Source: Candidatus Zixiibacteriota bacterium
Lineage (GTDB): Bacteria; Zixibacteria; MSB-5A5; GN15; JAAZOE01
Assembly: GCA_030668485.1 (NCBI GenBank)
Contig: DAOUTW010000049.1
Span: 1-33,182 of the forward strand
Length of the DNA: 33,182 bases
Reading direction: 5' to 3'
Below, piece by piece: positions 28,239 to 32,947 of the stretch. Both the position numbers and the translations under genes were made by a program. Numbering within the stretch: the first letter of the stretch is position 1; every line of letters starts with the position of its first letter. The notes beneath the pieces were generated by a model. It had not been told where the DNA came from and made no database searches. It saw nothing but the letters and a program-made list of their open reading frames with translations.

Positions 28239-30233
28239 ATGAAACGATTCGGAAGATACATATCAGGTCCCGCAATTTATGCTATGGCGACGGCGCTGTT
28301 GCTGATGCTGTTCTTTGAATCATGGCGTTTGATTCTCCTGGTTCATTCTCAGGATATGGCCGGTTCGGTTCCGACCGGCACACTGATCAAATCGTTTCTG
28401 ATCGGAGCCCGGTTCGATTTCCGCGTTGTCAGCGCCATCGTTCTACCGCTGTACCTTCTGGCCATAATTCCCAAAATAGATATTTCAACAAGTCGCACCA
28501 TGCGGCGGGTGAATCTCCTGATCCTCTACTTCATCACCGGAATCGTCTTTCTCTTTCATCTCATCGATATTGAATTCTTCAACTATTTCAACACCCGCCT
28601 CAACGGTTCCGCCCTCCTGTGGAGCGATACTCCGCTGGCCTCGCTGTCGATGATATGGGACACCTATCCGGTCATTTGGTATCTCCTCCTCTACGCGGTC
28701 ATATTGACAATTTTCATCCTCCTGATGCGATGGCTGACAGCAAGAATCGCGTCAGGCCTGGGGAAGTCCCGCTTTTGGGTCAACATGCTGTACCTGCCGG
28801 TGATTTTGGCCATCTTCATCACTGGTATGATCGGGCGACTATACGAGGTCGCCCCGATGCGATGGGGTATGGCCTACTTCTCCCAATACGACCTGGCCAA
28901 TCAACTGAGCCTCAATCCGACCTATACCTTCATGCGCGATATCTTCTATGACGCTCATAATCGGAATACTGTCGCGAAACTGGTGGAGGAGATCAAAGTC
29001 CCCGATGCCGAAGAAGTCACCCGTGAAATGCTCGGCGCTCCGGTATCGCCCAACGGCAGCCCGCCCAAACGGATGGTGCGGCCGGTTCGCTTCAATCAAC
29101 AAAATTCCGATCCCCCCAATGTCATAGTCATCATCATGGAATCGTTCGCCGCCTCCAAAATCGGATGCCTGAGAAGTGAATATCCCTATGATATGACCCT
29201 CCATTTCGATACTCTCGCCGAACGGGGGATTTTATTTACCAATTTCTATTCCGCCGGATCGCATACCTGTTCCGGCCTTTTTAACACCCTCTATGGTTCC
29301 TCGCACCTGTTCGGGAAGGTTTTTATGAAACAGGTTGGAGGCCATACTCATTTTCAAGGTCTCCCCTCGATCCTGCGGGACCGGGGATATCGCACTATCT
29401 TCTTCACCACCCAGGACCCACACTTCGATAATATGCAGGGCTTCTTGATGTCCCATGGAATGATGGATATCTATTCCGTCTTTGACTACGATCAGGATCA
29501 AGTCCTCAGTTGGCTCGGCGTTCCCGATCATATCATGTTCGACTATGCCTACGATAAACTTTGCGATCAAGCCAAAACTGGTGACCCGTTCATGGCGACC
29601 ATGCTGACCGGATCGAATCATGGTCCCTGGTTTGTCCCCGATGTGCCGTTCGATCCCCTCGCCGATAGTGTTGAACGAGCTAAGGAGTTTAATGCCCTCA
29701 AATATGCCGACTGGGCACTGGGGCGGATGATCAATCGCATTCTTGACGATCCCCTGTTTTCCAATACCCTGATCGTTGTGACTGCCGATAACGGTTATAA
29801 GTATAATGTCACCACCGATCTTGATCTCTCGCTTCTGGAGATTCCGCTGCTTCTCATCGACACCGACCATGCCGATCCACCGGGCGTGCGTAATGATCGC
29901 CTCGGATGTCAACTGGATATCCTCCCGACTGTCATGGGCCATGTAGGTCTTGATTATGACAATTACTCTTTTGGTGTCGACCTTCTTGATACGGCTGCCG
30001 CCGTCCATGATTTTGTTTTGGCCACCCGGTGGTATGAGGTCGGCTATATTCAGGACGGTTATTACACCATTATGCGACTCAATGGCGGCACCGAGTCGAT
30101 TTTCGAGGTGTCGAATAAAGCCGTCGATCTCGCCGACACTCGCCCCGATCTGCTGGAGACTTATACCCACCGTGCCCGCGCCGTTTACCAAAGCGCCTTC
30201 GAAAATTACCAACTGCCGTTGTCCGATCAATAG
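28239..30233 (+). CDS. LTA-synthase/phosphoglycerol-transferase-like membrane enzyme
   Basis: The 664-residue protein has five N-terminal membrane helices (within about 10-210), a linker, and an extracytoplasmic alkaline-phosphatase-superfamily domain. This is the plan of LtaS and MdoB, which move glycerol phosphate from phosphatidylglycerol onto a glycan or lipid. Catalytic features are visible: E301 in IIMESFAA, T343 in SAGSHTCSGLFNT (nucleophile position), SNHGPW with H461, and D517 in TADNG. The second metal ligand, His in LtaS, is Asn518 here, the pattern seen in arylsulfatases. The substrate may be a periplasmic glucan or surface glycan. A 335-codon antisense frame at 29232-30239 is a compositional artefact. 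Confidence 0.85.
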   Translation: MKRFGRYISGPAIYAMATALLLMLFFESWRLILLVHSQDMAGSVPTGTLIKSFLIGARFDFRVVSAIVLPLYLLAIIPKIDISTSRTMRRVNLLILYFITGIVFLFHLIDIEFFNYFNTRLNGSALLWSDTPLASLSMIWDTYPVIWYLLLYAVILTIFILLMRWLTARIASGLGKSRFWVNMLYLPVILAIFITGMIGRLYEVAPMRWGMAYFSQYDLANQLSLNPTYTFMRDIFYDAHNRNTVAKLVEEIKVPDAEEVTREMLGAPVSPNGSPPKRMVRPVRFNQQNSDPPNVIVIIMESFAASKIGCLRSEYPYDMTLHFDTLAERGILFTNFYSAGSHTCSGLFNTLYGSSHLFGKVFMKQVGGHTHFQGLPSILRDRGYRTIFFTTQDPHFDNMQGFLMSHGMMDIYSVFDYDQDQVLSWLGVPDHIMFDYAYDKLCDQAKTGDPFMATMLTGSNHGPWFVPDVPFDPLADSVERAKEFNALKYADWALGRMINRILDDPLFSNTLIVVTADNGYKYNVTTDLDLSLLEIPLLLIDTDHADPPGVRNDRLGCQLDILPTVMGHVGLDYDNYSFGVDLLDTAAAVHDFVLATRWYEVGYIQDGYYTIMRLNGGTESIFEVSNKAVDLADTRPDLLETYTHRARAVYQSAFENYQLPLSDQ

Positions 30234-30331: not shown

Positions 30332-30368
30332 ACACTGTACCCCACCGGAACGGTGGGTTTATAATTTG
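30332..30368 (+). repeat. Direct repeat R1, first copy: hairpin with T-rich tail
   Basis: A 37-nt unit is repeated exactly at 31507-31543. It holds a 7-bp stem CCCACCG/CGGTGGG with a GAA loop, followed by TTTATAATTT. It lies 98 bp downstream of the LTA-synthase-like gene and could act as its terminator. Confidence 0.85.
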
Positions 30369-30439
30369 ATCCTGAGATGTTTGTCCTGATGAATAAGCCG
30401 AATGTGGCGGGCGATTATCTAAATCAATAATTATTAGGC

Positions 30440-30480
30440 CTCAGGCCAAAATCGCTTCGCCCACCATTCTGGTGGGGTAC
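30440..30480. repeat. R2 block plus inverted R1-like hairpin
   Basis: CTCAGGCCAAAATCGC (30440-30455) recurs at 31608-31623. It is followed by CCCACCATTCTGGTGGGGTAC (split by the loop TTC), which is the reverse complement of the R1 hairpin with two paired changes: the loop-closing G-C of R1 is A-T here, so the stem is kept. Confidence 0.8.
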
Positions 30481-30525
30481 AAGTTGAAGTTATTCACTCA
30501 ATAATAGTCGAAACAGATATATTCC

Positions 30526-30554
30526 TTGACACATCGGATATTAGCTTGTATTAT
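30526..30554 (+). promoter_or_regulatory. Strong promoter of the second IPTL-CTERM gene
   Basis: Perfect TTGACA (30526-30531), 17-bp spacer, TATTAT (30549-30554). The predicted start near 30561 leaves an unusually long leader of about 210 nt. Confidence 0.75.
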
Positions 30555-30560
30555 AAATAG

Positions 30561-30772
30561 TACAGTTATTATTCTACGGTTTTTTACCGATTTCGGCATC
30601 GGGATTATGCTTTAGCGATGATCACACCAGAGAACCACATCTGTACTAATGGGAAACAGCATCAACGGCTAAGGAAATTATTCCGCTATGGGCGGATGAG
30701 CATACCACGTTGAATTATTGTTTTCCGCAGTCATCGGTAATGCCTATCACAATTGCACGAAGGAGGTCACAA
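30561..30772 (+). other. Long, possibly structured 5' leader
   Basis: About 210 nt of noncoding leader precedes the IPTL-CTERM gene. ATGCT (near 30607) can pair with AGCAT (near 30697), enclosing branches that include GGAA-atta-TTCC and CCGC-tatg-GGCGG. The pair CTAAG...TATGG inside recalls a tetraloop receptor as found in c-di-GMP-I riboswitches, but other conserved positions of that class are not convincingly matched. Confidence 0.25.
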
Positions 30773-31507
30773 ATGATCTGCAAAAATCTTATACAGGTAA
30801 TTGTCATTATCCTTGCAGTAAACTGTACCACAACCGGCACATCAGCGGAGGTGCCACCCAAAAACATTCTGCTCCTGGATTATAACTGCGGCGGAGTAAG
30901 ATGCACGACCTGGCTAGTCACAAGTAAAGTATGTGCGGATTTCGAATGGAATCCGGAACTGGATGTGAACTGCTCATTGTTTACGCAATCTCCCCCACCA
31001 AATCCGCTGGAGGAATACGATCGCATGGCAATCACAGCCCATTTGTTCGATAATGAGGTTTATATTAATGCGGAAATATACGACGATATCGATCACGATC
31101 CATCGGGATTGCTGTTTACCCATACCCTGGCCAGCACCGCGCCATATTCGGCCGATGGCGATGTCATGATCGGTGTCAATGTCTCGTCTTCAGGCGACCT
31201 GGTTTCGCTGCCGCTGCCCTTATCCGGCTCGTTCAAATCGACAGGTGGATTATCAACTGGCGACTATTTGATTAAACATAGGTCCGTAGAATCCGAGCCC
31301 ATATTGTATCTACAATTTGCAGTCATTGATGAGTCTACGGCCGAGCTGATTAGAGCAGATACTCTTTCATATTCCGTAGAATCCTTGCTTACAGGGCAGA
31401 TCCCCACCCTCACCGAATGGGGACTGATAATATTCGGCGTATTGTTGGCGGGATGGATGGGATGGATTATCATACATCGGCGAAAGAGGGTGATGGCCGG
31501 CTTCTAA
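30773..31507 (+). CDS. Second exported protein with IPTL-CTERM sorting tail
   Basis: The 244-residue protein starts at the ATG at 30773, six bases after GGAGG; an in-frame ATG 63 bases earlier lacks such a site. The signal peptide covers about 1-25. The body is beta-rich, with several cysteines in its first part (NCGGVRCTTW, VCADFEW, DVNC) and no recognised domain. The tail IPTLTEWG at 210-217, a membrane helix (218-234) and HRRKR is the canonical IPTL-CTERM signal. This protein is a probable surface substrate of an exosortase located elsewhere. The stop codon touches the start of repeat R1. Confidence 0.8.
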   Translation: MICKNLIQVIVIILAVNCTTTGTSAEVPPKNILLLDYNCGGVRCTTWLVTSKVCADFEWNPELDVNCSLFTQSPPPNPLEEYDRMAITAHLFDNEVYINAEIYDDIDHDPSGLLFTHTLASTAPYSADGDVMIGVNVSSSGDLVSLPLPLSGSFKSTGGLSTGDYLIKHRSVESEPILYLQFAVIDESTAELIRADTLSYSVESLLTGQIPTLTEWGLIIFGVLLAGWMGWIIIHRRKRVMAGF

Positions 31508-31543
31508 CACTGTACCCCACCGGAACGGTGGGTTTATAATTTG
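31507..31543 (+). repeat. Direct repeat R1, second copy: probable terminator
   Basis: Identical over 37 nt to 30332-30368. The first base of the repeat is the last base of the IPTL-CTERM stop codon. The stem CCCACCG/CGGTGGG and the following T-rich tail can end that transcript. Confidence 0.85.
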
Positions 31544-31558
31544 GTATAAACCGGATAG

Positions 31559-31600
31559 ATAGGTAACAGTTTAGACCGGGGGCATAGGTAACAGGTTAGA
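31559..31600. repeat. Two 17-bp direct repeats, possible insertion-sequence end
   Basis: ATAGGTAACAGTTTAGA (31559-31575) and ATAGGTAACAGGTTAGA (31584-31600) differ at one base and are 25 bp apart. GGTAACAG-TTAGA motifs are common at the ends of IS481-like elements, so this may be the scar of one. No transposase frame is present. Confidence 0.45.
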
Positions 31601-31607
31601 TTACGGT

Positions 31608-31698
31608 CTCAGGCCAAAATCGCGTTTGTGCCCGGTCCGCCGCGGCGGATCCACATCTGCCGGGCAATCGGGCACATGTGGACATGTGCCGCGCACAG
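31608..31698. repeat. R2 second copy followed by palindromic repeat R3, first copy
   Basis: CTCAGGCCAAAATCGC (31608-31623) repeats 30440-30455. R3 (31625-31698) shares 28 exact bases (31651-31678) with 32784-32811, and its GGCACATG-tgga-CATGTGCC hairpin. Its left arm is replaced by the palindrome TCCGCCGCGGCGGA. Confidence 0.8.
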
Positions 31699-31753
31699 AA
31701 ATCAGTTAAGATTTATTTTCTGCACCTTCCCAGCGTCTTTATCGCCCTGATAT

Positions 31754-31771: not shown

Positions 31772-32162
31772 TGAAGGAGTGCGGCACCCGACTTGTACAA
31801 AACATCTCATAATAGGGTGGAAATTATAGATTTACATTGATTCTGTGGTGATTATGTAGTAATTTGTCGGTGTCCTTGGGGAAAGGCACCGCGTATATCA
31901 ACAATGGACAAATTAAATTAGACGAAATCGAACGCTTGGAGGCAGTTTGATTCGGAGATATTGATGTGGGGTACAAACCCACGACATAGAAAGCAGGAAC
32001 CCACCCGCCGTCAGCAGGCTGACGGGCGGATGGGCCACCAGCCTTGACATTCATAATATTATATTACTCTCTTAGGCTGAACTAAGCCCATTTGATGTTC
32101 CCGACAACTTATGAGATTAAATCTGGGCATGACCTTTACTCTTAATCTTCACAGGAGGAGAT
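31772..32162. other. Intergenic region before the beta-barrel gene
   Basis: About 390 bp without a convincing gene. It contains GTGGG-gtacaaa-CCCAC (31966-31982), which echoes the R1 hairpin, and a GCCGTCAGCAGGCTGACGGGC palindrome-like stretch near 32010. A 76-codon minus-strand frame overlaps these repeats and is probably spurious. Confidence 0.5.
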
Positions 32163-32766: not shown

Positions 32767-32832
32767 TTGTGCCCGGCAGATGTCCACATCTGCCGGGCAA
32801 TCGGGCACATGCGGACATGTGCCATGCACAAA
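32767..32832. repeat. Palindromic repeat R3, second copy: double hairpin
   Basis: A perfect 13-bp stem TGCCCGGCAGATG (32770-32782) with a 4-nt loop is followed by GGCACATG-cgga-CATGTGCC (32804-32823). The double-hairpin layout resembles REP/BIME elements. It shares 28 exact bases with the copy at 31651-31678. Confidence 0.85.
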
Positions 32833-32947
32833 ACAGTTTTCTAACAAAAATGTTAGAAACTGTACATCTTCAGATGATTTGGACAAATTGATATTAAAAG
32901 TTAAGACATAGTTCTTGCTCGGGCAATAGCAATTCTCCCACAGCAAG

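Follow-up and report, generated by a model that had tools for sequence, protein, structure and literature searches.

Organization of the locus

The window, a stretch of 33,182 nucleotides from a Candidatus Zixiibacteriota genome, contains two related repeat elements that are separated by a protein-coding gene. The first, at 30336–30481 and not assigned to a strand, is an intact REPIN-like element of 146 bp with two inverted hairpin ends and 102 nt between its arms, whose upstream neighbour is a sulfatase-family gene on the plus strand (28239–30233; PF00884, 146 bits). Its left REP (30337–30357, plus strand) consists of a GTAC foot and the hairpin CCCACC-G-GAA-C-GGTGGG, the end reading TGTACCCCACC..GGTGGG, and is paired with an inverted partner at the right (30460–30480, minus strand) that carries the same foot and the hairpin CCCACC-A-GAA-T-GGTGGG. 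A CTGAG motif is located 14 nt inside the left hairpin (30372–30376, plus strand) and again 15 nt inside the right hairpin (30440–30444, minus strand, reading CTCAG on the plus strand).

In the original prediction this region was described by two direct repeats, R1 and R2, and an inverted copy of the R1 hairpin. The repeats themselves are confirmed. R1 is an exact 37-nt repeat (30332–30368 and 31507–31543), far longer than chance would yield in 33 kb, the exact 16 nt of R2, which begins at the right CTGAG motif, sit within a 19-nt pair with one mismatch (30437–30455 and 31605–31623), and the inverted copy, which is the right REP, matches over 22 nt (30460–30481) with two differences that convert the loop-closing pair around GAA from G-C to A-T. 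Rather than being separate items, they belong to a single 146-bp element, in which R1 forms the left end, R2 the right subterminal part and the inverted copy the right end.

The gene between the elements encodes an IPTL-CTERM protein (30773–31507, plus strand; PF18203, 27 bits at a cut-off of 20.8, on the open reading frame 30710–31507), its start having been selected for the ribosome-binding site AAGGAGG. Behind it follows the second element (31511–31623, plus strand), which belongs to the same subfamily and is broken, as it has kept the left REP and R2 (with 36.4 bits for R1 in the end model described below) and is missing the right hairpin. Its left REP (31512–31532, plus strand) begins 5 nt behind the IPTL-CTERM stop codon and is terminator-like, and its middle is replaced by a stretch resembling the end of an insertion sequence (31544–31604, plus strand) that contains two GGTAACAG units, with similar stretches found near three contig ends. 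The second element would be a separate insertion that shares subfamily and orientation with the first and was broken later. Further downstream, a GTGG-footed hairpin on the minus strand (32000–32039; GGTGGCCCATCC...GGGTGGG) represents a sister class of REPs.

The same order of the blocks on both sides of the IPTL-CTERM gene had raised the idea that the gene could be cargo of a composite unit in which both elements move jointly, and full-length matches of the gene are indeed confined to its own genome among the 60 searched, with other matches covering the C-terminal motif. However, the outer right end is absent, owing to the missing right hairpin of the second element, both insertions have the same orientation, and the other copies in the genome are found away from any such gene. 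The first two features make a role as cargo unlikely, and we regard such a unit as extremely improbable and the gene as probably a bystander. The absence of the gene from same-family genomes says little in this respect, since the flanking sulfatase is also missing from all six of them at E ≤ 1e-50. In three Candidatus Zixiibacteriota MAGs with a sulfatase of 52–59% identity, other genes or the contig end are located downstream and there is no match to the end model, but as the region is not syntenic this says nothing about occupancy of the site.

Distribution of the ends in the genome and its relatives

Further copies, on whose existence the original prediction had been made to depend, are dispersed throughout the genome. 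A search for the hairpin CCCACCNGAANGGTGGG with up to one mismatch identified 14 places counted on both strands, seven of them exact, compared to none for a reversed-pattern control. With a broader pattern of foot and stem that relies on sequence only (GTRCCCCRCC..GGTGGG), this number increases to 57, again compared to none in the reversed control, and the GTGG-footed class is found at 30 places compared to one. A covariance model was built from 21 ends. In the own genome, with 150 of 1390 first-look candidates scored, it detects 36 ends at E ≤ 10, of which 30 reach E ≤ 0.02; these 30 comprise the 21 used for building the model and nine new ones. Many of the ends are solitary, and a strict pattern defines five two-ended copies of 136–165 bp, none of which is flanked by a target duplication (0/5). 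A full-length relative of the intact element with 84% identity resides in the same genome (G000:C64:4923-5071), with a 71% relative close by. By a crude call of open reading frames, 22 of 29 classed ends are located outside of such frames; one of the 30 was dropped for lack of a head, and the classification is unreliable for it and for four ends whose assigned head was over 100 nt away from its expected position. The copies are thus dispersed and mostly extragenic, as in REPINs, though their number is modest. Neither an excision nor an empty site was observed for these copies.

Among 60 genomes including the own, matches at E ≤ 0.001 are found in six. Four of these belong to one family, with 27 ends in the own genome, eight in G003, four in G006 and two in G005, and two genomes of another family (G020 and G050) contain one marginal match each. 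A search of Rfam returned a single match with an E-value of 0.76 that is far below its gathering score. At one place of the genome (G000:C130:2897-3061), a GTAC-footed element carries a nested pair of GTGG-footed REPs directly behind its CTGAGG.

Hairpin structure and compensatory change

When folded as single-stranded DNA, the 146-bp element reaches −28.8 kcal/mol, compared to a mean of −15.8 for shuffled sequences (z −4.8), and its two inverted REPs and spacer are thus capable of forming a single hairpin. In the alignment of 21 ends, the loop-closing pair is found in all four Watson-Crick types (C-G in eight, A-U in four, G-C in two and U-A in one), the remaining six being long hairpins whose stem is closed by a different column. 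Among 42 distinct hairpins from the 57 places, 30 surpass in folding 95% of the versions whose middle was shuffled. The seven short hairpins of the type found in the window are individually below this level, with 10–51% of shuffles being as good, because in these one pair alone is free to vary. Taken together, pair types and folding tests thus establish the compensatory change as real and as part of a wider pattern. Compensatory changes are described as common in REPINs by Bertels and Rainey (PMC3116915); in our view they could also be obtained by intramolecular copying between the arms of a palindrome. The proposal of selection on structure or of a mobile hairpin is supported by the dispersed copies, the four types of loop-closing pairs and the RAYT genes with the same ends that are described below.

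The hairpins might alternatively be intrinsic terminators of the two upstream genes, their repetition reflecting a favoured terminator sequence instead of mobility. The left hairpins (30341–30357 and 31516–31532), which are followed by TTTATAATTT, score as terminator-like, the second is located just behind the IPTL-CTERM stop codon, and there are six terminator-like sites in 2 kb where 1.5 would be expected. Conversely, conservation extends well past the hairpin to the foot, the CTGAG motif and full-length copies of 146 bp, the right ends (GGTGGGCGAAGCG) lack a T run, so that the combination of a GC-rich hairpin and a T run is confined to the left hairpins with their TTTATAATTT tail, and, by the crude call of open reading frames, the outer gene reads towards the end in 13 of 21 cases and away from it in eight, without clear bias in orientation. 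As a general explanation of the repeats, termination is thus very unlikely. Of the suggestion that the hairpin doubles as a terminator, what persists is a possible role at the two sites in the window, where the terminator-like left hairpins may end transcripts.

Foot sequence and the CTGAG motif

The foot of a REP is thought to act as a guide that chooses the cleavage site. In the copies of the window and in all 19 hairpins scanned by that head, the foot reads GTAC instead of the 5' GT[AG]G that characterizes REPINs, and the element is therefore classified as a variant and not as a canonical REPIN. Among these 19 GTAC-CCCACC hairpins, 16 contain CTGAG 14–15 nt 3' of the hairpin, the exceptions being a lone hairpin on contig C37, the broken second element and a hairpin on C109. 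Within the examined loci, to which these counts refer, three other classes with 59 hairpins in total (15 GTAC-CCCGCC, 14 GTGC-CCCACC and 30 GTGG-CCCA) lack the motif throughout. A related locus, L221, combines a GTAG foot with CTTAG or CTGAG in similar places.

As described in PMC8266576, REPs canonically have the foot GT[AG]G. When GTAC was engineered into the Stenotrophomonas system, cleavage was abolished, whereas in a Marinomonas system the change from GTAG to GTAC redirected cleavage to sites with GA and GT. Since engineered GTAC feet altered cleavage, a family with a natural GTAC foot is a useful variant. The nearly invariant CTGAG, which contains GA, could be a cleavage site or a second site of recognition. 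We considered a simple rule in which the foot and a conserved dinucleotide further downstream would correspond. This rule fails, as CTGAG is absent from all 15 hairpins of the GTAC-CCCGCC class and L221, with its GTAG foot, carries CTTAG or CTGAG, and the idea of cleavage at CTGAG thus stays speculative.

RAYT transposases associated with the same ends

The genome contains 10 matches to the Y1_Tnp domain, nine of them above the cut-off, and a motif scan detected REP-like feet at seven of these 10 loci, flanking the gene on both sides in L069, L072, L074 and L076. The protein of L072 (G000:C122) is identified as a REP-associated tyrosine transposase (RAYT) by NCBIfam NF047646 (98.9 bits, cut-off 80) and contains a Y1_Tnp domain (PF01797, 33.6 bits, cut-off 23) with the sequences HVH and YCHNNP. 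It thus combines domain, HUH motif, catalytic tyrosine and membership in the REP-associated subfamily. The protein also matches TnpArep of E. coli (4er8), and, of the residues W, Q, H, R and E that are named as contacts of the GTAG foot by Quentin and colleagues (PMC6006769), the first four are kept in the alignment and E is replaced by D.

When applied to 40 RAYT loci, the end model yields 10 matches at E ≤ 1, which are located in four loci (L072, L214, L221 and, weakly, L210). At L214, from a sister genus of the same family (G006), inverted ends of 45.0 and 28.9 bits enclose the RAYT reading frame (1258–1830) on both sides. At L072 the same REP is found upstream only (59.4 bits), with a hybrid end of 22.9 bits located downstream. 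In this hybrid, a GTGG-footed hairpin is fused to an inner sequence of the GTAC type, as if the end had been swapped between classes. In a tree of the 22 RAYT loci with a reading frame, the remaining 18 of the 40 having been left out, the loci L072, L214, L221, L069 and L076 group in one clade supported at 100/99, and each of them has GTAC or GTAG feet. Across loci the feet vary, with GTAC found here, GTAG at L221, GTGG at L070 and L074 and GTGC in further hairpins, and this diversity around related RAYTs offers natural substrates for the study of the guide-sequence rule.

RAYT remnants within the copies

Adjoining the hairpin inside three copies, on contigs C116, C60 and C33, we find endings of RAYT proteins (VLEIDVSE-stop, LLEIDVSE-stop and IEIDVSE-stop), which resemble the ending of the L072 protein (AVLEIDVSG-stop); in the C33 copy the reading frame shifts further in. 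When nine ends were scored against the end of the L072 gene, five exceeded 500 of 500 shuffles (the left end in the window, C116, C33, C60b and C52) and one exceeded 498 of 500, whereas the second block, C89-left and C25-left were no better than shuffles. At L214 the RAYT stop codon is located further inside, and an overlap of stop codon and end is thus not universal.

Together with the shuffle comparison, these remnants suggest that the interior derives from a RAYT unit that underwent internal deletion. Bertels and Rainey have suggested that REPINs originated from an ancestral IS200-like element, of which they would represent the ends (PMC3116915). Copies that keep the last RAYT codons support an origin of this kind. 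If this holds true, the stop-codon remnants would directly show that REPINs can arise by internal deletion of RAYT units. A joint reading would be that the foot has diversified naturally around related Zixiibacteriota RAYTs, with GTAC as natural counterpart of the engineered change, that CTGAG serves in cleavage or as a second recognition site, and that REPINs can originate from internal deletion of RAYT units; we consider this combination possible but rather doubtful.

Identity of the elements and relation to known systems

With its 146 bp and inverted ends (GTACCCCACC), the intact element would in size and shape also fit an ordinary MITE, mobilized via terminal inverted repeats by the DDE transposase of an insertion sequence. 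However, the missing target duplications at all five two-ended copies, the RAYT codons contained in three copies and the RAYT flanked by the same ends render this explanation hardly conceivable. Conversely, the latter two observations argue for a REPIN that depends on a RAYT. Points against this assignment are the GTAC foot, the small number of ends, many of them solitary, the different downstream hairpin of L072, the lack of any observed excision or empty site and the three ends that resemble the L072 gene end no better than shuffles do. We conclude that the segment 30336–30481 is very probably a non-autonomous REPIN, whose ends would be recognized as single-stranded DNA by a RAYT encoded elsewhere, and that 31511–31623 is a second, broken insertion. 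In the proposed mechanism, this RAYT, a member of the HUH/Y1 family, would act on both hairpin ends, cut beside them and insert the element at new positions, mostly between genes, with no duplication of the target.

The elements share with REPINs and RAYTs (Bertels and Rainey, 2011, PMC3116915; Nunvar, 2010, PMC2817692) the inverted REPs with spacer, the hairpin formed in single-stranded DNA, the dispersal, the compensatory changes and RAYTs flanked by the same repeats. They differ from the REPINs described there in that the foot is GTAC and not GT(A/G)G, that there are about 30 ends, far fewer than the hundreds in Pseudomonas, that three copies retain C-terminal codons of a RAYT, and in their phylum, Zixiibacteriota, and from described REPINs also in the CTGAG motif 14–15 nt inside the hairpin. 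They also resemble TIRtrons and TIRYT genes (Di Nocera, 2013; PMC3733652), in which RAYT-like genes are flanked by longer inverted repeats, possibly self-complementary and moderately abundant, although here each inverted repeat consists of foot and hairpin. The GGGGWSAS motif, which according to the same study is found in part of that family, is not matched by the ends, which read GGGGTACA. Atypical REPs of TnpA_Y1 subclass 2.6 and class 3 (Quentin, 2018; PMC6006769) similarly lack a GT[AG]G foot and accompany genes of the tnpA_REP type, but are described as weaker structures. A search of the REPIN/RAYT literature, with most subscription journals outside its reach, retrieved no report of REPINs in Zixiibacteriota.

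Sequences surrounding the second element

The stretch at 31544–31604 is not an isolated case, as GGTAACAG units resembling the end of an insertion sequence occur within 60 nt after five of 86 distinct contexts of REP-like hairpins in the examined loci (31544–31604; L192, L193 and L195, with two places). This arrangement suggests an insertion sequence, perhaps IS481-like, that would target REP hairpins. In 503,218 nt of overlapping loci there are 60 occurrences of GGTAACAG, and on contig C2, close to its end, the motif is located upstream of the start of an open reading frame that reads MPWKETRVMDERLKF. A foot-like GTGGGGTACAAA without hairpin arm at 31964–31980 may be the right foot that the broken second element has lost by displacement. 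After 31623 a different palindromic repeat starts (GTGCCCGG...GGGCACATGTGGACATGTGCC...), which is found at 31624–31710, at 32770–32838 and at more than 10 further places in the genome.
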